Of a stretch of 64,000 bases of DNA, positions 3,192 through 16,728 are shown piece by piece. Numbering within the stretch: the first letter of the stretch is position 1; every line of letters starts with the position of its first letter. The DNA is from Leeia aquatica (GTDB lineage Bacteria; Pseudomonadota; Gammaproteobacteria; Burkholderiales; Leeiaceae), in the NCBI RefSeq assembly GCF_012641365.1, contig NZ_JABAIM010000004.1:124001-188000 (forward strand). Direction: 5' to 3'. Both the position numbers and the translations under genes were made by a program. Under the pieces are notes generated by a model. That model had not been told where the DNA came from, searched no databases, and saw only the letters and a program-made list of their open reading frames with translations.

Positions 3192-3279
3192 ACTTCGGTA
3201 AAATTCAGTCACAAAAGCGCTCGTACCATAACAACAAAACCCGGTCTGCACGACCACACCGATCAGGATGGACAAACCG

Positions 3280-4407
3280 ATGAAAATCAGCAGTTGTTTT
3301 GACGCCGGCAGCATCGTGGTAGACAGCATGGAACACGCAGGCGATATCCGCCTGCAGGTCCGCCACGACAGCAATTCCGAATTCGCCCAGTGGTTCTACT
3401 TCCGCTTGCAAGGTGCTGCCGGGCAGGCCTGCCAGATGCGTTTCCTCAATGCAGCGCAGTGCGCCTATCCGAAAGGCTGGGTGGACTATCAGGCGGTGGC
3501 CAGTTATGACCGTCAGCACTGGTTCCGTGTGCCCACCCAGTTCGATGGCCAGGTGCTGACCATTCAGCATACCCCGGAAGAAGACAGTATTTACTACGCC
3601 TATTTCGAGCCGTACAGCTGGGAGCGTCACCTGCAATTAATCGGCCAGGCGCAAAGCTCGCCGCGCTGCAAGGTTCGTGATCTGGGCAATACGCTGGATG
3701 GCCGCGACCTCAATCTGCTGGTGATCGGCGATGAAGCACCGGGCAAGCGCAAGGTGTGGCTAACCGCCCGCCAGCATCCGGGCGAAACCATGGCCGAGTG
3801 GTTTGTTGAAGGCACCCTGTCACGCCTGCTGGATGAGCAGGATGCCCTGGCCGGTGCCTTGCTCGACAAAGCCACCTTCTACGTGGTGCCCAATATGAAT
3901 CCGGATGGCAGCTGCCGTGGCAACCTGCGAACCAATGCCGCTGGCACCAATCTGAACCGTGAGTGGGCCAACCCGACGATGGAAAAGAGCCCGGAGGTGT
4001 GGCTGGTGCGCGAAGCCATGCGCGAGATTGGCGTGGACCTGTATCTGGACGCCCACGGTGATGAAGCCTTGCCGTACAACTTCGTGGCGGGCAGCGAAGG
4101 CAACCCGGGCTATAACGCCCGCCGTGAAGCGCTGGAAAACAGCTTCAAGGCCGCCTGGCTGGTACATAACCCGGATTTTCAGGATACCTATGGCTACGAG
4201 CGGGATCATTTTGGTGAAGCCAATATGACCCTGGCAACCAACCATATTGCGGATTACTTTGACTGCCTCGCCTACACCATCGAGATGCCATTCAAGGATA
4301 ACGCCAACCGGCCAAGCGCCTTGTATGGCTGGAACGGCGAACGCAGCAAACAGCTGGGTGCGTCCGTACTGCACCCGATCGCGGCGGTCATCGACCAGCT
4401 ACGCTGA
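3280..4407 (+). CDS. M14-family cytosolic carboxypeptidase
   Basis: The 375-residue protein lacks a signal peptide. An N-terminal beta-rich domain (about 1-120) precedes a zinc carboxypeptidase domain. Zinc ligands are His166 and Glu169 in the QHPGET motif and His259 in DAHGDE. The substrate-binding Asn226-Arg227 (TNLNREW) and the catalytic glutamate Glu335 (YTIEMPF) are present. This is the layout of the cytosolic carboxypeptidase (CCP, Nna1-like) branch of M14, which removes C-terminal residues such as glutamate. The ATG at 3280 is chosen because AGGA lies 11 bases upstream; an ATG at 3268 has no such site. The bacterial substrate is not known. Confidence 0.88.
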   Translation: MKISSCFDAGSIVVDSMEHAGDIRLQVRHDSNSEFAQWFYFRLQGAAGQACQMRFLNAAQCAYPKGWVDYQAVASYDRQHWFRVPTQFDGQVLTIQHTPEEDSIYYAYFEPYSWERHLQLIGQAQSSPRCKVRDLGNTLDGRDLNLLVIGDEAPGKRKVWLTARQHPGETMAEWFVEGTLSRLLDEQDALAGALLDKATFYVVPNMNPDGSCRGNLRTNAAGTNLNREWANPTMEKSPEVWLVREAMREIGVDLYLDAHGDEALPYNFVAGSEGNPGYNARREALENSFKAAWLVHNPDFQDTYGYERDHFGEANMTLATNHIADYFDCLAYTIEMPFKDNANRPSALYGWNGERSKQLGASVLHPIAAVIDQLR

Positions 4408-5741: not shown

Positions 5742-6524
5742 ATGATGATGTATCCCGTTTTGCTGCCCAATGGCTACGAACCTTCGCTGACTGAGGTCAT
5801 GGTGGGCGGTGTGGTTTTTTTCGGCACCATTTATTTCGGTTTTGCCCTGCTCAACCTGCTGCTGCAAAAGGGGCTGCGCACTCTGGGCATCGGGCGCGTG
5901 CTGGACCCGCGTCCCCTGCGGCCACAGCAGGTCTGGCGGGAGATCGGCTGGTCCTCCCTGTCCATCCTGCTGTTTGGCACCGGCATGGTCTTCCCGTGGA
6001 TGGTGCTGAAGCTGGGCTGGTCACACGCTGTGATGGATGCCGGGATACCCCGTATTCTGCTGGAAATGCTGGCCTTGCTGCTGTGGAACGACATCCATTT
6101 CTACCTGAACCACCGCTTGCTGCATACCCGCTGGATGTTGCCGCGTTTTCATGTGCAGCATCACCGCAGCCATGTCACGACGCCGTTCTCCACCTACGCC
6201 TTCCACCCGGTGGAAGCCTTGCTGCTGGGGAATGTGCTGCTGTTGCCCATGATCGTGCATGACTTCAGCTGGCAAGCCATGCTGTCGCTGCCTTTGCTCA
6301 GCCTGTTGCTGAACAATATCGGCCACGCCAACTATGACCCGTTTCCTGCCCAGGGGGGGCGCAGCTGGTTGACCTCCAGCCGCCGCCATCACCTGCACCA
6401 TGCCTGCTCGCGGGGCAATTTCGGATTCCTGCTGCCTTTCATGGATCAGCTGTTCCATACCGATTTGCCGGATGACGCTGCGGATCGCGTGCTGCAGGCG
6501 CACCAGTCACGCCATGCTGCGTAA
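5742..6524 (+). CDS. Sterol desaturase / fatty acid hydroxylase-superfamily membrane protein
   Basis: The 260-residue protein has several hydrophobic helices and the three histidine clusters of the superfamily: HFYLNHRLLH, HVQHHRSH and HHLHHA. These bind a di-iron centre that hydroxylates or desaturates lipid C-H bonds in the membrane. Translation probably starts at one of three consecutive ATG codons (5742, 5745, 5748); the longer upstream frame overlaps the phospholipase-D gene and has no family match. Its last 11 bases overlap the start of the fatty acid desaturase, so the two are translationally linked. The substrate is not known. Confidence 0.87.
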   Translation: MMMYPVLLPNGYEPSLTEVMVGGVVFFGTIYFGFALLNLLLQKGLRTLGIGRVLDPRPLRPQQVWREIGWSSLSILLFGTGMVFPWMVLKLGWSHAVMDAGIPRILLEMLALLLWNDIHFYLNHRLLHTRWMLPRFHVQHHRSHVTTPFSTYAFHPVEALLLGNVLLLPMIVHDFSWQAMLSLPLLSLLLNNIGHANYDPFPAQGGRSWLTSSRRHHLHHACSRGNFGFLLPFMDQLFHTDLPDDAADRVLQAHQSRHAA

Positions 6525-7368
6525 CCGGCGCGATGTGCAGAGCCTGGCCTACCTGCTGGCCGCCCCCCTGCTGGTGGCCTGGCAGTGGCAACACGGCTTC
6601 AGCCTGCCACTGTACCTGCTGCTCTTGTTCCTGACACTGGGTATCGGGGTGATCAACCACAACCACTCGCATCTACCGATGTGGCGTCATCGTGGCCTCA
6701 ATCGCTTGACCACGCTGTGGGTCAGCCTGCTGCAAGGCCACCCGGCCTTTGTGTTCCACCCGGCCCACGTGGCCAACCATCATCGCTACCACCACGGCGA
6801 GCAGGATGTAGCCCGCACCTACCGCTTTGGCGGCGACCACAATCACCTGCTCGGCTACCTGCTGCATCCGGTGGTGGTGATTCCGGTCCTCTATCCCTTG
6901 TTCTGGCATTATCTGGGCCGCTTGCAGCATCGCCGTCCGGCGCTGTGGCGCGCCTGCCTGCTCCAGTACGGCTGGCTACTGTTGCTATGGGGGGTGCTGC
7001 TCTGGCTGTCACCTGGCAAAACCCTGCTCTATGTGCTGCTGCCGCAGCTGCATGGCCTGCACTGGCTACTGGCCACCAACTACCTGCAGCATGCCCACGC
7101 GGATGGACATTCGCCGCTCAACTTTGCCCGCAACTTTGACGGCCTGATCAACCCGCTGTTACTCAATATCGGCCTGCATACCAGCCACCACCGTCACCCG
7201 AAGGCGCACTGGTCACAACTGACGCACTTGCAACAACAGTACCGCGATCAGATCGACCCGCGCCTGAACGAGCGGGGGCTGCTGCCCTATATGTTCCGCG
7301 TCTACCTGCTGGGGCTGATCTGGCCTCGCTATCGTAGCCAAAGCCTGATGACGTTCACCCCTCACTGA
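6514..7368 (+). CDS. Fatty acid desaturase-family membrane protein
   Basis: The 284-residue protein has membrane helices and three histidine boxes, HNHSH near residue 45, HVANHHRYHH near residue 85, and HTSHHRH near residue 230. That is the arrangement of acyl-lipid or acyl-CoA desaturases with a di-iron site. The start at 6514 (MLRNRRDVQS) is chosen because it overlaps the previous gene by 11 bases and begins just before the first helix. The next gene starts 8 bases after its stop. It is the second of two membrane di-iron enzymes in a row in this cluster. Confidence 0.87.
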   Translation: MLRNRRDVQSLAYLLAAPLLVAWQWQHGFSLPLYLLLLFLTLGIGVINHNHSHLPMWRHRGLNRLTTLWVSLLQGHPAFVFHPAHVANHHRYHHGEQDVARTYRFGGDHNHLLGYLLHPVVVIPVLYPLFWHYLGRLQHRRPALWRACLLQYGWLLLLWGVLLWLSPGKTLLYVLLPQLHGLHWLLATNYLQHAHADGHSPLNFARNFDGLINPLLLNIGLHTSHHRHPKAHWSQLTHLQQQYRDQIDPRLNERGLLPYMFRVYLLGLIWPRYRSQSLMTFTPH

Positions 7369-7376
7369 GGACCGAC

Positions 7377-9272
7377 ATGCCCACACCTTTCCAACGTGTC
7401 TATCTCGATGCGGCCAGCCACTATCTGCCAGGCGAGCCGGTCGATAACACGGCCATGGACCAGTACATCGCGCCGCTGAACCGGCTGTCCAACCGCATCA
7501 AGCAACGCATTCTGGCGGAAAACGGCATTGAGCAACGCCACTACGCCATCAACCCGCAAGGGGAAACGGTACAGTCCCACGCCGCCATGGCGGCAGAGGC
7601 CATCCGTCGGGCTGTACAGCAAACAGAACTCTCACTCAGCGACATTACTTTGCTGGCCGCAGGCTCCTCAGGTGGCGATGCACTGATGCCCGGCTTTGCC
7701 AACCTGATCCAGGGTGAATTGTCGGCCCCGCCGATGGAAACCCTCAGCAGTCAGGGCGTGTGTGCATCCGGTGTCACGGCGCTGAGCCATGCTGCCATGG
7801 CACTCGAACTGGGCAGCCATGAGCGGGCGCTGGTGGTGGCCAGCGAGCTGCCGTCACGCATGTTCAAGAAGAGCCGCTTTGCCCCGCGCGACTATCACGC
7901 CGACTTTGATGCCCATTTCCTGCGCTGGATGCTCTCTGACGGCGCGGGAGCGATGCTGCTCAGCCGCACCCCACGCACGCGAAACGGCATCCGCCTGCGC
8001 CTGAAATGGGTACACCAGCGCTCCTTTTCCGGCGATTACCCGGTATGCATGCAGCTAGGACTACCGCAAGGCGGCAGCAAGAGCTTCCTCGACTATGATT
8101 CCTGCGCCGATGCCGAACGTGATGGCGCACTCTCCTTGCGACAGGATATCCGCCTGCTCCCGCATCTGTTTGACATCGGCATTCATGAATATGTGAAGCT
8201 GGTACAGGAAGGCTGGCTGCATCCGGACCGCGTCAGCCACTTCCTCTGCCATTACTCCTCCGAGCGCTTCATCCCGGTGGTGGAAGAGCTGATGGCCAAG
8301 GCACAGCTGTCCATTCCGCGCGAGCGCTGGTACAGCAATCTGAAATGGCGCGGCAATACCGGCTCGGCCTCCATCTTCATCATGCTGGCCGAGTTTCTGG
8401 AGACGCATACCCTGCAGCCCGGCGACACTTTGTTCTGTTACATCCCGGAATCTGGCCGCTTCACTACGGCTTTCCTGCTGCTGGAGGCCGAAGCGGCCGA
8501 CCAGCCGCTACCCGAGCCGGTTGCTCAACCCATCGCCCAGCCCACGCGTGACGCGGAGGTCCCCGCCCCGCATGACCCCCAACACAGCGATCCACGGCTT
8601 GCCCGCCTATTGCAGGCACTGGCGGTGATCTGGCATGACTACCGGTCACGGGCCTGGCGCACCCCGATGATCCGCAAGTTGCGTGAGCAGCGTTTCACGT
8701 GGAACGATTACCGGCAATGGATGGCCTGCTGGATTCCTCAAGTACGGGAAGGCAGCCTGTGGATGCGCGAAGCGGTCGCCTCGCTGCAAGCCCCGTTTGA
8801 AGCGCTGGGCGAGCTGGTAACCGAGCATGCCAATGATGAGCAGTTTGACTTCAACATCCTGTTTCAGGACTATCAGGCCGCCGGTGGCGAAGCCCGCCGC
8901 ATTGAGGACTTGCGTCGCAACGCGGGCGGGGAAGCCTTGAACAGCTATATGCACGCGCTGGCCAGCACGCCGAATCCCATCGGCCTGCTGGGTGCCATCT
9001 ACATCATCGAAGGCACTGGACAACGCATCATCCCCGCACTGCTGCCGCTGCTGAAAAACCAGCTGCAGCTGCCGCCCAATACCTACCGCTTTCTCGATTA
9101 TCATGGCAGCAACGACGAACATCACCTGCAACGCTGGCTGCGGGCGGTGATGCTGGCGCTGCAGGCGGAACCGGGCGAACGGGTGGCGGAGCAGATCATC
9201 CGCACCACAGAGCGCACCGCGCAGCTGTACCTGATGCAGTTTGAACATGTACTGGAGGATGTGGACGCATGA
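7377..9272 (+). CDS. Ketosynthase III fused to a heme-oxygenase-like (HDO) iron oxidase domain
   Basis: The 631-residue protein has two domains. Residues 1-370 are a 3-oxoacyl-ACP synthase III fold with the catalytic triad Cys129 (GVCASG), His292 (CHYSSE) and Asn327 (GNTGSAS). A Pro/Ala-rich linker (about 373-403) follows. Residues 405-625 look like an iron-containing redox enzyme of the heme-oxygenase-like type, with candidate metal ligands Glu483/His484, Asp487/Glu488, Glu545 (IIEGTG) and His576, Asp580, His582, His583 (HGSNDEHH). The first domain should condense acyl chains; the second may oxidise or cleave the product. The protein may also belong to the long StlD/DarB-type ketosynthases. 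The ATGA at 9269 couples it to the next gene. A parS-like site lies inside it at 8691. Confidence 0.82.
   Translation: MPTPFQRVYLDAASHYLPGEPVDNTAMDQYIAPLNRLSNRIKQRILAENGIEQRHYAINPQGETVQSHAAMAAEAIRRAVQQTELSLSDITLLAAGSSGGDALMPGFANLIQGELSAPPMETLSSQGVCASGVTALSHAAMALELGSHERALVVASELPSRMFKKSRFAPRDYHADFDAHFLRWMLSDGAGAMLLSRTPRTRNGIRLRLKWVHQRSFSGDYPVCMQLGLPQGGSKSFLDYDSCADAERDGALSLRQDIRLLPHLFDIGIHEYVKLVQEGWLHPDRVSHFLCHYSSERFIPVVEELMAKAQLSIPRERWYSNLKWRGNTGSASIFIMLAEFLETHTLQPGDTLFCYIPESGRFTTAFLLLEAEAADQPLPEPVAQPIAQPTRDAEVPAPHDPQHSDPRLARLLQALAVIWHDYRSRAWRTPMIRKLREQRFTWNDYRQWMACWIPQVREGSLWMREAVASLQAPFEALGELVTEHANDEQFDFNILFQDYQAAGGEARRIEDLRRNAGGEALNSYMHALASTPNPIGLLGAIYIIEGTGQRIIPALLPLLKNQLQLPPNTYRFLDYHGSNDEHHLQRWLRAVMLALQAEPGERVAEQIIRTTERTAQLYLMQFEHVLEDVDA
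8691..8706. promoter_or_regulatory. parS-like site inside the ketosynthase gene
   Basis: CGTTTCACGTGGAACG contains the 14-base core GTTTCACGTGGAAC, whose reverse complement equals the core of the Bacillus parS. It lies in codons for RFTWN of the linker-distal domain. Occurrence inside a gene is known for parS elsewhere. It could be chance, but four such sites occur within 44 kb here. Confidence 0.6.
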
Positions 9273-10189
9273 AGCAGCTACCGGATTTTCTGGACACCGA
9301 GTACGACCCGCGCGACCCCTCACCGTGGCTCTCGCTGTATCTGGACCAGAGCACCCCGCTGCCGGACCCGGTCAAGCGGGCCTGGCTGCGTGACTCCAGC
9401 TCCCGCTCACGACAATTTGTGCTGCCCTTCCTGCGGCCGCTGGCCCGCACCCTGATCATCCTGATTCAGGTGCTGAAGGTGGTGCTGCCACGGCGCTGGG
9501 CGGCCTCCCGGCTGCTGCACTGGCTACTGGCCTTTGGCCTCAAGCGCTTTGTCACGCCGGAAGCCAACTGGCTGATCCTGCGCCACTTTCACCTCGGCGC
9601 ACAGATCCTCGAGTTCATCGCCCGAAATTCGCCACAGCCGGTCAGTACCAACCCGCTCAAGCCGGTGACCATCGATGATCTGAAGGATGAGCTGTTTCTC
9701 AAGCACGACCTCAACCTGTTCAACTTCGTGATCCGTCTCAACCAGGCGCTGCGCGAGCACGGCCAGCAACTGGGGCCGGTGGCCCAGCCGGATTTCAGCA
9801 TGCTGCACGAACCGCCGGTACCGCTGGAGAGCATGCCACGTCGCTGGCACAACTTCCTCGACCTGCAGAGCGCCATCGAACTGTTCACCCCGATGTACCA
9901 GCTGTTCCTCACCGACAACGACTTCTGGCGCGCCAGCAACTCGCTGCAGCTGGACGAAACCATCGGCCTCTACGCCGCCCGCATTCTCGGCGCCCCCGAG
10001 CATCTGGTCCTGCTCAACAACAAGCACCCACTGGTACCACTCAGCACCCTGCGCGCCGGTTTCCGCCTGGTACTGCACGGCCTGAGTACTGAAATGCTGC
10101 ATGCCCTTTTGGTCATGCGCCAGCAGCAAACCACGGGTCAAGGCGCGGCCGCCGGTGGTTCTGCGGCCAGTGCGGGCTCTTCGTCGTAA
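9269..10189 (+). CDS. Unrecognised protein of the desaturase-ketosynthase cluster
   Basis: I do not recognise this 306-residue protein. It starts four bases before the end of the ketosynthase gene (ATGA) and so is part of the same operon. It has one strongly hydrophobic stretch near residues 50-92 (PFLRPLARTLIILIQVLKVV and following), which suggests membrane association. The C-terminal 20 residues are a low-complexity Gly/Ala/Ser tail. A His-Phe-His motif near residue 105 (ILRHFHLG), plus scattered acidic residues (LDLQSAIELF), are the only polar features that stand out. Its last 52 bases overlap the convergent peptidase gene. Confidence 0.75.
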   Translation: MKQLPDFLDTEYDPRDPSPWLSLYLDQSTPLPDPVKRAWLRDSSSRSRQFVLPFLRPLARTLIILIQVLKVVLPRRWAASRLLHWLLAFGLKRFVTPEANWLILRHFHLGAQILEFIARNSPQPVSTNPLKPVTIDDLKDELFLKHDLNLFNFVIRLNQALREHGQQLGPVAQPDFSMLHEPPVPLESMPRRWHNFLDLQSAIELFTPMYQLFLTDNDFWRASNSLQLDETIGLYAARILGAPEHLVLLNNKHPLVPLSTLRAGFRLVLHGLSTEMLHALLVMRQQQTTGQGAAAGGSAASAGSSS

Positions 10190-11130
10190 CGGCGCATGAT
10201 GGCGGCGCGCAGCGGGGCGAGTTCGGTGGTGTTGTCGAATTCCAGCAGGTCGTCGTCAAAGCGCAGGCCGAGTTGCAGCCAGATCAGCGGCAGGTCCGGG
10301 CTCACCGGTTCTTCGCGCATCTCCTGATACAGCTCGCGGAAGGTGGCGCCGCCGTCAACCCCATCCAGTGTGGTCAGCACCCGATCTAGGCTGGTGTAGT
10401 CGGCAATGCCGCGCGTCTCACGGTTGAGGTGACGCAGGGCATCCATGAAACCGATCTGGTTGTCGCTCTGCTGCCGCAGGCGCAGGTCGGCCTGCATGCA
10501 GTAGTAGACGCCGGCCCAGTACACCCGGCTGCCGCTCATCGGGTAATCCAGCCCGCGCTCGCCCATTTTGGGGATGGCTTGCCACATGCTGCGCACCAGC
10601 CCGCGCCAGGCCTGGGCTTCGTTGATCGCGCCAATTTTGGCACGCACCAGGGTGGCACTGTAGTCGGCCACGCCTTCCAGAAACCAGAACGCCTTGTTGG
10701 GCAGCATGGGGGTGCCAAGGTGGACCATCTCGTGGATCAGCAAACCATCCCGATTCAGCGCGTCCAGCGTGGCCTTGCGGCCCAGGGTCACCCGTAGTGC
10801 CGGGTACGGTTGGCCCCAGGCAATCCCGGCCAGCACCCGGTCCCCCTCGGCACTATCGACCAGCACCTCGACCCGGTCGACCGGGAAACGTCCATAGAAG
10901 GCGGAGACCCATTGCGCACGCTGCTCAATCCAGGCCACGACCTCCGCTTGGGATAAGCTCAGGTCCTGCGCCTGGAAGGCCACGTCCATCACCGCACCTT
11001 GCACCTCCAGCCGGGTTTTAGGCAACGGCGCCAGTGCGCGGTAGAGGTTAGCCGGGTTCAGGTCCTGTGCCTGGGCGGTGCCACAGCACAGCAGCAGTAT
11101 GAGCAGGAGGCGGGAGAGAAGAGGGTGCAT
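10138..11130 (-). CDS. Secreted MA-like zinc peptidase family protein
   Basis: The 330-residue protein begins with a signal peptide (hydrophobic core LLLILLLCCG, cleavage after AQA near residue 21). A gluzincin motif follows, HEMVH (HExxH) near residues 134-138, with a downstream glutamate in FLEGVADYSA, as in peptidase MA-like proteins. It is therefore probably a periplasmic zinc peptidase or a derived fold. The gene is convergent with the lipid cluster and overlaps its last gene by 52 bases. No specific role is evident. Confidence 0.8.
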   Translation of the reverse strand: MHPLLSRLLLILLLCCGTAQAQDLNPANLYRALAPLPKTRLEVQGAVMDVAFQAQDLSLSQAEVVAWIEQRAQWVSAFYGRFPVDRVEVLVDSAEGDRVLAGIAWGQPYPALRVTLGRKATLDALNRDGLLIHEMVHLGTPMLPNKAFWFLEGVADYSATLVRAKIGAINEAQAWRGLVRSMWQAIPKMGERGLDYPMSGSRVYWAGVYYCMQADLRLRQQSDNQIGFMDALRHLNRETRGIADYTSLDRVLTTLDGVDGGATFRELYQEMREEPVSPDLPLIWLQLGLRFDDDLLEFDNTTELAPLRAAIMRRYDEEPALAAEPPAAAP

Positions 11131-11191: not shown

Positions 11192-13255
<2,064 letters not shown>

Positions 13256-13312
13256 TTAAACGGGTCGCCGACACCCTGCAATGGGTGTCGGGTCAAACCT
13301 GGAGAGGCGGTA

Positions 13313-14608
13313 TCAGTCGTCGCTGCTGTTGTGACGGCGGCCTACCTGCACGCCCAGCTGCTTGAGCTTGCGGTACAGGTGGGTGCGCTCCAGCCCTACG
13401 CGTTCGGCCACCTGGCTCATGTTGCCGCCGGCCTGCTTCAGATGGTATTCCAGATACAGGCGCTCGAACTCATCGCGTGCTTCACGCAGGGGCTGGTCGA
13501 ACGACACGCCGGTCATCGGCAGGGCCGGTGCAGCCTCAGGCGCGCGCGGCGCACTGCTGGACAGGCGCAGCAGCGCCTGCACATCGTCCGCACTGATCTC
13601 TTCTTCGCTGGCGGTCAGGGCGGCGGACTGCACCACCTGCAGCAGCTCCTGATGGTTGCCTTGCCAGCCGTGCTGCCGCAGCTGGTTGAGCGCGGCAGTG
13701 GCAAAGCGGCGTTGCGGTGCCTTGCGGGCTTCGATCAGCTGCGTGAGCAATTGATTGGCCAGGTCTGGCACATCGTCCGCATGCAGACGCAGCGGCGGCA
13801 CCACCACGGTCAGCCCTGCCAGCGCCTGATACAACGCAGCATCAAACTGCCGCTCGGTCACCAGTGGCAGCAGCGGCTGGCTGGAGGTGACCACCAAGCG
13901 GGCGTGAAACTTCTCCAGCTTGTTGACCACCAGCATCAGGCCCTGCTGTGCCCGCCGCGGCAATTCAGCCACTTCCGGCACATACAGCAAACCGTCTCGC
14001 GCCTGCTCCAGCAGGCTGAGCGGGGCGTCAATCAGGGTTTGTGGGTTGCTGACGGTCACCCACGGTGAATTCGGGGTATACAGGTAGCGGGCACACGGTT
14101 CAAACGCCACGCCATACTCGCCGGTCAGCAGCACCGGCCGCCGCTGTTGCAATACCTGATCCAGCTTGGCCTTGAGGTCCACAATGGCCTCGCCTTTGCC
14201 CAAGCTGGCCAGTGTTTGCTCCGGGTGGTGCTGGGCACCGCCGCGCTTCAAGGCCCGCTGCACGGTCGACAGCAGCTTTTGCAAGGCAATCGGCTTTTCC
14301 ATGAAGTCCAGCGCGCCGATGCGGGTGGCTTCCACCGCCGTATCAATGGTGGCATGGCCCGACATCATGACCACCGGCATGGTCAGTTGCCCGGCGCGTG
14401 CCCATTCCTTGAGCAAGGTGATGCCATCACAGTCCGGCATCCAGATGTCGAGCAGCACCAGGTCCGGACGCTGCTGATTCCGGTAAGTCCGCGCCTGGGC
14501 GGCATTCTCGGCCAGCTTGACCCGATAACCCTCGTCTTGCAGGATTTCCGACAACAATTCCCGGATGCCCATTTCGTCATCGACGATCAGGATTTCGTTT
14601 CCGCTCAT
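13313..14608 (-). CDS. ntrX: NtrX-family response regulator with a degenerate AAA+ domain
   Basis: The 431-residue protein has a receiver domain (phospho-acceptor Asp54 in LLDIWMPD), a central domain and a C-terminal Fis-type helix-turn-helix (MSQVAERVGLERTHLYRKL). The central domain is clearly descended from a sigma-54 activator but is broken. The Walker A site reads GEYGVAFE instead of GExGTGKE, the Walker B DE is replaced by YVPEVAEL, and no GAFTGA loop is present. It should not hydrolyse ATP or open sigma-54 promoters, so it probably acts as a sigma-54-independent DNA-binding regulator. Its ATG overlaps the NtrY stop. Confidence 0.9.
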   Translation of the reverse strand: MSGNEILIVDDEMGIRELLSEILQDEGYRVKLAENAAQARTYRNQQRPDLVLLDIWMPDCDGITLLKEWARAGQLTMPVVMMSGHATIDTAVEATRIGALDFMEKPIALQKLLSTVQRALKRGGAQHHPEQTLASLGKGEAIVDLKAKLDQVLQQRRPVLLTGEYGVAFEPCARYLYTPNSPWVTVSNPQTLIDAPLSLLEQARDGLLYVPEVAELPRRAQQGLMLVVNKLEKFHARLVVTSSQPLLPLVTERQFDAALYQALAGLTVVVPPLRLHADDVPDLANQLLTQLIEARKAPQRRFATAALNQLRQHGWQGNHQELLQVVQSAALTASEEEISADDVQALLRLSSSAPRAPEAAPALPMTGVSFDQPLREARDEFERLYLEYHLKQAGGNMSQVAERVGLERTHLYRKLKQLGVQVGRRHNSSDD

Positions 14609-16728
14609 ACGTCTCCCTCTGGCGGCGTGGTGACTCTTGGCAGTACCAGCGTCACACTGGCCCCCTGTGGCTCACGGTTCTGTATGCTCACGCTGCCGTG
14701 ATGCTCTTCGCAAATCTTTTTGACAATGGCCAGCCCCAGCCCGGTCCCCTTGGCCTTGGTGGTCACATATGGCTCAAACACCCGGGCCAGCATGTCCGGC
14801 GGAAAACCCGCGCCATTGTCCTGCACCACCAGCGTGGCCGAAGTCTCAGCCCCCTGCAGGCGCACTTCAATGCAAGGCGCTTCCGCGCCCGATACCGCAT
14901 CTTGTGCATTTTGCAACAAATTATGCAACACCTGTCGTAATCTTGTCGCATCCCCCATCACCAGCACGGCACGATCACATAGCCTTGCCTGCACCCAGCC
15001 GCTGCTCTCATACAGGGTGAGTACCTCGCGCACCAGCGCATTCAGGTCCAGCATCTGCAGCACCGTCTTCGGCGCACGCGCATATTCCTTGAAGTCTTCC
15101 ACCATGTTTTTCAGGGCAGCCACCTGATTGACAATAGTCTGCGTACTGCGCGCCAGCATGTCGGCATCCGGCTGCGCCAGCTTGTCAGACAGCTTGTGCT
15201 GTAGCCGCTCGGCCGACAGCTGGATGGGCGTCAGCGGGTTCTTGATTTCATGGGCCAGCCGCCGTGCCACCTCACCCCAGGCCGCTTGGCGCTGGGCCTG
15301 CATCAGGTCGGTAATGTCGTCAAACACCAACACAAAGCCATGGCCAGCCCCCGGCATGCGACTGCCGCGCAACAGCAGCACCTGGCTACCACGAGGGCCG
15401 ACCAGCTCCAGCTGTGCATGCCAGCTGTCCTGACCCACACCGTTGAAACCCTCCACCACCCGCTGGGCAAATTCAGCCAGCTGCGGCATGCGACGGCCCC
15501 ATGCCGCCAGCGCCGTGCCCTGCAATTCATGCATCGGCACCCCGAGAATGGCGTCGGCACCGGCATTGCTGGAGCGCAGACCAAACCCGGCATCGAAGGC
15601 CAGTACGCCGGCGGTCAGGTTGGCCAGCAGGCTGGCAAGGTATTCATTGGCGGCGGCGAGCGCTTGCTGCTGCTGCTCCACGCTGTCACGCGCCTCGGCC
15701 AGCTGCCGGGTCATGCGGTTGAATTGCAGCGTCAGCACCCCCAGCTCGTCCTTGCTCAGCACCGTCTGCCGCTGGCTGAAGTCGCCCTGCGCCACCGCGC
15801 GGGTCCCCGCCGCCAATACCGACAGCGGAGCGGACAAGCGGCTGGAGAGGTAAAACGCCAGCGCCATCACCAGCAGCAGGATCAGCAACAGTGATAGCGT
15901 CAGCGTCACCGAATAGATCAGCTGCAGGTTGCCGCGCGAGAGTGCCAGCGTCTTGTAATCACGGCGGATGTTTTCCAGCACCTCGGCATCATCGGCCAGC
16001 TGGCGGGATACCGGTTGCTGCAGCAGCAGCATGCGGCCATCACCGCCCAACCCGCCTGGCTTCAACGCCACCAGCACCCGCACCTTGAGCTCGTGCTCAT
16101 TCTCGGCAGCGTTTTCCACCACCGACCACGGCCCGCTGCGCGCCTGCAGCAATTCATTCTGCGCCGGCTGAGCGGGCGACTCGCTGCCCGCATACGCCAG
16201 CAAGGAGCCCCGGCTGGTGAAAATCCCCAGCTGGGCAATATCCTGCTGTTCACGCAGTCGCCCCAGCAGGCTCAGCAGGTCCGCATCCTTCGCCTCGTTC
16301 AGCTGCCGGGCAATGCTGAGGGCCACCCGCTCCTGTTCCTGCCGGACGTGGTCCAGCGCCACCTGCCCCAGGTTCAAGCCCCGGTCCAGCGCCGTATCCA
16401 CCCGCACATCAAACCAGGTTTCAATACTGCGGGTCAGGAACTGGAAGGACACGGTATACACCAGCGCGCCAGGCAATACAGCCACCAGTCCAAACATCAG
16501 CACCAGCCGCAGGGTCAGCTTGGAGCCAAACACCCCGGCTTTCAGCTTCTTGCGCAGGTCCCACAACTGCCAGCCAACCAGCGCCAGCAAGCCGACCGCC
16601 ACCACACCGTTGAGCAACAACAACAGGTTGTAGTGGTTGGACAGCCGGCTGCCATTGGCGGCCGCGCTGGCCAGCAGATACAGCATGATCCCGGTTACCA
16701 GTGCAGCCAGTATCACCAGGCGCTTCAT
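14605..16728 (-). CDS. ntrY: NtrY-family sensor histidine kinase
   Basis: The 707-residue membrane kinase has several N-terminal hydrophobic segments (first 100 residues), a periplasmic region and another membrane segment near residue 280. A HAMP region follows (SRLSAPLSVLAAG), then a PAS-like domain. The kinase core has H-box RLAHEIKNPLTPIQLSAERL, N-box LHNLLQNAQDAV and G-box KGTGLGLAIVKKI. NtrY pairs with NtrX to control nitrogen-related and respiratory genes. The coding start overlaps the DUF4390 gene upstream by 4 bases, so rsmB, DUF4390, ntrY and ntrX appear to be one operon. Confidence 0.93.
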   Translation of the reverse strand: MKRLVILAALVTGIMLYLLASAAANGSRLSNHYNLLLLLNGVVAVGLLALVGWQLWDLRKKLKAGVFGSKLTLRLVLMFGLVAVLPGALVYTVSFQFLTRSIETWFDVRVDTALDRGLNLGQVALDHVRQEQERVALSIARQLNEAKDADLLSLLGRLREQQDIAQLGIFTSRGSLLAYAGSESPAQPAQNELLQARSGPWSVVENAAENEHELKVRVLVALKPGGLGGDGRMLLLQQPVSRQLADDAEVLENIRRDYKTLALSRGNLQLIYSVTLTLSLLLILLLVMALAFYLSSRLSAPLSVLAAGTRAVAQGDFSQRQTVLSKDELGVLTLQFNRMTRQLAEARDSVEQQQQALAAANEYLASLLANLTAGVLAFDAGFGLRSSNAGADAILGVPMHELQGTALAAWGRRMPQLAEFAQRVVEGFNGVGQDSWHAQLELVGPRGSQVLLLRGSRMPGAGHGFVLVFDDITDLMQAQRQAAWGEVARRLAHEIKNPLTPIQLSAERLQHKLSDKLAQPDADMLARSTQTIVNQVAALKNMVEDFKEYARAPKTVLQMLDLNALVREVLTLYESSGWVQARLCDRAVLVMGDATRLRQVLHNLLQNAQDAVSGAEAPCIEVRLQGAETSATLVVQDNGAGFPPDMLARVFEPYVTTKAKGTGLGLAIVKKICEEHHGSVSIQNREPQGASVTLVLPRVTTPPEGDV

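Follow-up and report, generated by a model that had tools for sequence, protein, structure and literature searches.

A cassette of four genes was found at positions 5742-10189 of the window, the 64,000-nucleotide stretch of a Leeia aquatica contig that was analysed. It encodes a membrane hydroxylase (hyd), a membrane desaturase (des), a ketosynthase III (KS) fused to a heme-oxygenase-like dimetal oxidase (HDO) domain (KS_HDO), and a protein of family DUF6999. The gene arrangement in related genomes indicates that the four genes almost certainly constitute one conserved operon. Its predicted function could plausibly be the biosynthesis of a fatty-acid-derived lipid, as an alternative branch of the DarB/StlD (cyclohexanedione/dialkylresorcinol) chemistry, although our confidence in this assignment stays a little short of even.

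Gene organization and conservation

The cassette genes are codirectional and lie on the forward strand. The first, hyd (5742-6524), encodes a 260-residue protein of the membrane fatty acid hydroxylase/sterol-desaturase family PF04116 (85.6 bits, cut-off 31). It overlaps by 11 bases with des (6514-7368), which encodes a 284-residue membrane fatty acid desaturase (PF00487, 76.7 bits, cut-off 29.7). After a gap of 8 bases KS_HDO follows (7377-9272), a single open chain of 631 residues in which Pfam recognizes ACP_syn_III, ACP_syn_III_C and PF14518. A 4-base overlap connects it to the DUF6999 gene (9269-10189; PF22523, 306 residues, 441.8 bits, cut-off 27). All four products pass the gathering scores. 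The first-pass annotation had given these gene boundaries, overlaps and gap exactly, and its reading as a hydroxylase, a desaturase and a ketosynthase III-HDO single chain was confirmed. The protein that it called unknown is indeed unassigned in function, but belongs to a named family.

DUF6999 was detected in 12 of 300 genomes of the order and a KS-HDO protein adjoined it in all 12, mostly with hyd and des ahead. When one genome per species was scanned, 271 relatives emerged, and the best 80 of them were retrieved. They include Achromobacter, Variovorax, Delftia, Comamonas, Cellvibrio, Azoarcus, Advenella, Bordetella, Chitinimonas, Andreprevotia, Pseudoxanthomonas and others. The order hyd-des-KS_HDO-DUF6999 and the strand were kept in 86 of 94 loci, from at least 15 named genera; some of the other eight are contigs ending within the cassette. 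Given that the sample is heavy in a few genera, it was thinned at 12% ketosynthase distance, giving 26 loci with all parts. Across this non-redundant set the protein distances of the cassette genes correlate pairwise (r 0.58-0.86), in part a reflection of shared ancestry. The median ratio of non-synonymous to synonymous substitution rates (dN/dS) was 0.08-0.13 for each of the four genes (10 close pairs). The retention of order and strand together with the low dN/dS puts the linkage well beyond chance.

The genes flanking the cassette vary between loci, and no other gene family travels with it across genera. The next commonest neighbour family occurs at 33 loci, confined to Achromobacter, Variovorax-type loci and the window. 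Caulobacter vibrioides has relatives of the cassette by profile matches only, and the only plasmid-type copy, a distant one, is on a Pseudoalteromonas replicon. In one member of the order (G101, locus L028, about 12443-13302) the desaturase beside KS_HDO looks either very divergent or broken in its frame, and the locus has no hyd.

Core genes and origin of the fusion

Six alphaproteobacterial loci (L114 and L151-L155) have KS, HDO and DUF6999 side by side on one strand; KS and HDO are encoded there by two genes, and neither hyd nor des stands ahead of KS. The same separate KS and HDO genes followed by DUF6999, again without hyd and des, were observed in the gammaproteobacterial locus L115 and in Pseudoalteromonas sp. 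THAF3 (L195). In the latter, NCBI labels the products as beta-ketoacyl-ACP synthase III, iron-containing redox enzyme family protein and hypothetical protein. The predicted core is thus KS, HDO and DUF6999, with hyd and des as an added, optional module. The claim of a four-gene pathway unit holds in that the genes are co-inherited and stay together in related genomes; it has to be amended in that the system reaches well outside Neisseriales and that hyd and des are optional.

In L195 (6621-7178) and L115 (11444-12007) the gene before KS encodes a His-containing hydrophobic protein of 185-188 residues that belongs to no Pfam family. The two proteins are 64% identical to each other, and possibly replace the membrane oxidases in the gammaproteobacterial form. 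Downstream of DUF6999 in L114 (5697-9098) lies a gene for a 1133-residue fusion of major facilitator superfamily, acyltransferase and AMP-ligase parts, which would fit lipid handling.

A KS tree was calculated without an outgroup and without the FabH rows, whose branches are very long. The fused ketosynthases formed one group (100/100) and the DarB-type enzymes another (100/100), with the separate ketosynthases between them. This grouping and the separate-gene loci fit a single fusion event, with the two membrane enzymes acquired later; the KS-HDO fusion apparently arose once. A triple fusion had been considered at two DUF6999 loci with open frames longer than 900 residues, and was ruled out as HDO and DUF6999 are in different frames.

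The cassette of Variovorax sp. MHTC-1 is split, with hyd and DUF6999 at L105 and des and KS_HDO at L196/L198; a second PF00487 gene follows the latter pair. The fact that all four genes were retained when unlinked is good evidence that they share a function.

Ketosynthase domain

The KS domain (residues 1-372; 7377-8492) is related to the StlD/DarB ketosynthases. StlD is its closest solved structure by sequence (E 4e-67), and the fold comparison with StlD 5gk0 gave a Z of 43.3 (root-mean-square deviation 2.3 over 359 residues), as against 35.7 for OleA. The triad Cys129-His292-Asn327 is intact, as had been claimed: the cysteine is kept in 92 of 92 aligned ketosynthases and the histidine and asparagine in 93 of 93 each, and all three are conserved in both the cassette and the DarB-type groups. 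StlD/DarB enzymes are known to join two fatty-acid intermediates (PMC3949708), and condensation is therefore well supported; the cassette KS is very probably an active condensing enzyme.

When 396 genomes of the phylum were searched with the StlD/DarB model NF005293, two separate sets were obtained: 12 genes scored 560-601 bits, and the other eight, all of them cassette ketosynthases, 302-398 bits. The domain is accordingly placed as a sister type of StlD/DarB, with the same fold and triad, in a separate clade and under the family cut-offs.

The resemblance to the DarA-DarB and StlC-StlD systems comprises the KS fold, the catalytic triad, about 36% KS identity and a KS that directly adjoins its presumed oxidising partner. 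The partner differs, with an HDO (fused in many cases) and DUF6999 instead of DarA. The separate KS clade (100/100), the scores under the cut-offs and the two extra membrane enzymes also set the cassette apart. DarA was found directly upstream of DarB, with no HDO, in all three DarB-type loci read out. In 22 cassette genomes DarA was detected twice, in both genomes that also have a DarB-type KS and in none of the 20 that lack one; the controls G025 and G643 matched. The lack of DarA, with HDO and DUF6999 beside the KS, suggests that these two occupy the place of DarA, which supports, and does not prove, an oxidising step by the HDO.

HDO domain

In the AlphaFold model of the KS_HDO chain the ketosynthase fold is followed by a disordered linker (about 382-402) and by an all-helical domain from residue 406. 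The low-complexity linker, about residues 373-399 (8493-8573), has low pLDDT (34-40 for residues 381-400) and varies in length among relatives, from 25 to 73 residues with a median of 37 in 90 of them. The HDO domain (residues 400-631; 8574-9269) matches PF14518 with 52.6 bits (cut-off 28.9). Residues 406-623 of the model are all-helical; the fold search used the full chain, and its results were filled by the KS part. A profile search of the PDB returned one solved relative, 3dde (7.7e-11), a heme-oxygenase-fold protein of no assigned function; UndA was not returned. The Pfam match and 3dde support the earlier proposal that residues 400-631 are HDO-like; neither of the two results named there as refuting, a lack of HDO character in these residues and a scattering of the four genes in related genomes, was seen.

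Seven residues, H484, E488, D491, E545, H576, D580 and H583, do not vary in any of the 94 sequences and are candidate metal ligands. The stand-alone HDO homologues of L151-L155 and L195 keep all seven. That of L115 passes PF14518 (33.7), and the Pseudoalteromonas protein falls under the gathering score. Characterised HDOs carry the ligand motif E-H-E-H-(D/E)-H, common to about 85% of HDO groups (PMC11363339). In the cassette HDO the third to sixth positions are occupied as in the motif (E545, H576, D580, H583) and E488 stands at an E position by spacing, while the second position is D491. The helix-1 His precedes the helix-2 Glu by 53 residues in FlcD (H191, E244) and by 54 in MboA (H89, E143). 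D491 is 54 residues before E545, and a gapless alignment with 3dde sets it opposite a His. From the spacing and this alignment it follows that an Asp fills the canonical helix-1 His position, with a His (H484) seven residues earlier. The first-pass annotation had announced a complete set of candidate iron ligands; it stands as seven invariant residues, but is not the canonical set. The domain is predicted to be a metal-dependent oxidase, which we regard as probable.

Compared with UndA, SznF, FlcD, MboA and CADD, the cassette HDO shares PF14518 and the canonical spacing of E545 and H576-x3-D580-x2-H583. It differs from them in the Asp at the helix-1 His, with a His one or two turns earlier, and in being fused to or encoded beside a ketosynthase. 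A 2026 review of HDOs names neither a ketosynthase nor a ketosynthase fusion (PMC13108848). A literature search for StlD/DarB or ketosynthase together with heme-oxygenase-like enzymes found no such enzyme.

The closest HDO relatives outside the cassette (L156-L166; about 75-90 bits for the best) are in a gammaproteobacterial operon that encodes a thermostable haemolysin family protein, an AMP-binding ligase, the HDO, a short-chain dehydrogenase/reductase (SDR) and a tetratricopeptide repeat protein. This operon has no StlD-type KS or DUF6999, and its HDO is stand-alone, with 20-30% identity. No description of it was found in one literature search.

DUF6999 and the membrane enzymes

DUF6999 accompanies KS and HDO down to 27-31% identity. 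Residues H106, H146, D147, D198, D229, H270 and E275 are invariant in 95 of 95 sequences, and some His and Asp/Glu are invariant even at 27% identity, so that a catalytic role is possible. The protein has one hydrophobic stretch (residues 51-69). Its structural model is of fair quality (pLDDT 78, pTM 0.78); Foldseek gave no significant match to the fold, and there was a single VIA match, with a Z of 2.1. An HDO/UndA-like fold was considered, since such chains appeared in the noise of the list, and was rejected when the profile-profile comparison with the cassette HDO yielded a probability of 0.3%. No paper naming DUF6999 was found in a literature search.

Both membrane enzymes have intact histidine boxes, in agreement with the di-iron type assigned before. 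The motifs of hyd (H124-x3-H128, H137-x2-H140-H141 and H216-x2-H219-H220) are kept in at least 97% of 90 homologues, and those of des (H49-x3-H53, H85-x3-H89-H90 and H222-x2-H225-H226) in at least 97% of 87. Against the PDB, hyd had no significant solved relative and the only match of the des profile was AlkB (8sbb), which was not significant (E 0.15).

Genomic surroundings and previous reports

Two genus-mates are without the cassette. Both keep a phospholipase-D-family gene near two-component genes (13313-16728 in the window), and the window holds about 7.6 kb extra at that place: the cassette, a gene at 10138-11130 and a flavin oxidoreductase gene at 11192-13243. The former has no Pfam or NCBIfam match and contains a HEMVH motif, perhaps of a peptidase. 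The latter is of the old yellow enzyme (OYE)/FadH type. Both lie between the cassette and the two-component genes, and neither is at that place in the two genus-mates. The GC content of the cassette region is not distinctive, and a gain of the cassette in L. aquatica and a loss in the genus-mates fit equally. On the other side, at 3268-4407, an ordinary-looking gene encodes a cytosolic-carboxypeptidase-like M14 peptidase (PF18027 and PF00246). No RNA families were found in the first 20 kb of the window, and a promoter scan gave a result not above chance.

The phospholipase-D-family gene is directly upstream of the cassette in the window and in Variovorax loci. Its candidacy as a pathway member was weakened, because it occupies the same chromosomal position in the genus-mates, which have no cassette.

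The locus is already partly visible to genome mining. Clusters that antiSMASH types as ‘resorcinol’ are on record for three groups: one in A. mucicolens, its core gene given as DarB (PMC9045304), and unassigned ones in a Variovorax (PMC10946135) and in each of the seven Delftia strains that one study covered (PMC13339810). Among the genomes tested from A. mucicolens and Delftia, the sole StlD/DarB-type KS is the fused KS-HDO. For this reason the orphan clusters of these two are probably the cassette, a match made by gene content and not by coordinates; the Variovorax cluster could be a true DarB. The passages on these clusters do not describe the KS-HDO fusion, the fixed four-gene unit or the link to DUF6999. 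The earlier description of an uncharacterised pathway is thus supported, with the reservation that part of it has probably been recorded in Achromobacter and Delftia as an orphan ‘resorcinol’ cluster.

Proposed pathway and alternative explanations

In the proposed pathway, Cys129 would take up the acyl group of a fatty acyl (or beta-ketoacyl) thioester. The KS would then condense this unit and a second beta-ketoacyl thioester, giving either a 2,5-dialkylcyclohexane-1,3-dione or a beta-keto precursor with an open chain. The condensation product would then cross the flexible linker to the HDO, which would activate O2 at a (probably dinuclear) metal site and oxidise it by at least two electrons. 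This oxidation may be an aromatisation to a resorcinol, taking the canonical place of DarA, or a hydroxylation. DUF6999 might assist the HDO step as a partner, a product-binding protein or a further enzyme, and hyd and des would finally modify the alkyl chains in the membrane. A StlD/DarB-type KS, and not one of the OleA or FabH type, favours a product of the cyclohexanedione/resorcinol kind over a 1-alkene, and we give such a product an even chance. The part of DarA is assigned to the HDO tentatively.

Several observations weigh against this proposal. The KS reached 333.3 bits with NF005293, below the cut-off of 450, and 271.2 bits with the DarB model NF053539, against its cut-off of 550. Ketosynthases of this fold also yield linear beta-keto acids, ketones and pyrones. 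E157 is conserved and equivalent to StlD Glu154, which presumably has a role in cyclisation; it was dropped as proof of that step because the FabH of the genus-mates also has Glu there. The four-gene unit includes no dedicated acyl carrier protein gene, and the Asp in place of the canonical His may give the HDO a different metal site. The lack of hyd and des at the alphaproteobacterial loci means that the final product must differ between lineages.

The main rival is a modified lipid of the membrane or for signalling, of a kind other than resorcinols. Here the KS would join two acyl chains, or one acyl chain and some other nucleophile; the product would be oxidised by the HDO and the membrane enzymes and handled or transferred by DUF6999. 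Such a lipid would suit the two integral-membrane oxidases, the hydrophobic stretch of DUF6999, the acyltransferase/acyl-ligase fusion gene downstream in one alphaproteobacterium and the acyl-AMP ligase and SDR that sit with the nearest outside HDO relatives. The upstream phospholipase-D-family gene also points this way, but that link may be accidental, given its position in genus-mates without the cassette, and neighbour genes vary between loci; on balance this explanation is rather unlikely. Less likely still is a route to a volatile alkene, ketone or alcohol, as raised by the first-pass annotation, in which the KS would make a beta-keto acid and the HDO would decarboxylate or cleave it in the fashion of UndA. 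UndA is an HDO that acts on fatty acids (PMC13108848). The cassette HDO has the first-helix E-x2 spacing of UndA (E488-x2-D491), and beta-keto acids are within the reach of KS chemistry. However, the KS is nearest to StlD and not to OleA, the helix-1 His is an Asp, the PDB search did not return UndA, and two membrane tailoring enzymes would be odd for a volatile. The alkene and ketone routes have little or no specific support.

The HDO domain attached to the KS might also have no redox function and be either regulatory or metal-free (PqqC/TenA-like). The replacement of the canonical His ligand by D491 would agree with this, as does the existence of heme-oxygenase-fold proteins that need no metal (PMC13108848). 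It is nevertheless improbable in view of the seven His/Glu/Asp residues, which are invariant and persist in the stand-alone forms, and of E545 and H576-x3-D580-x2-H583 at canonical spacing. A chance grouping of ordinary duplicate fatty-acid genes has been refuted by synteny and has next to no probability: each membrane family alone is common, but the conserved order across many genera, the fusion and the low dN/dS contradict it.

The occurrence of the cassette in many proteobacterial genera (among them Achromobacter, Bordetella, Variovorax, Delftia and Cellvibrio) implies that its product would be a common one. It might, as a tentative view, belong to an undescribed and widespread class of bacterial lipids or aromatic polyketides, made by a StlD-type KS tethered to an HDO with Asp in place of His and helped by a DUF6999 enzyme of possibly new fold. 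The pairing of a ketosynthase with an HDO, which the 2026 review does not name (PMC13108848), constitutes a natural test of whether an iron enzyme, and not DarA, can perform the oxidising step of DarB-type chemistry. The cassette also places DUF6999 in a functional setting and presents an HDO whose first-shell ligand set is altered, and the loss of linkage in Variovorax sp. MHTC-1, with all genes kept, provides a genetic handle.

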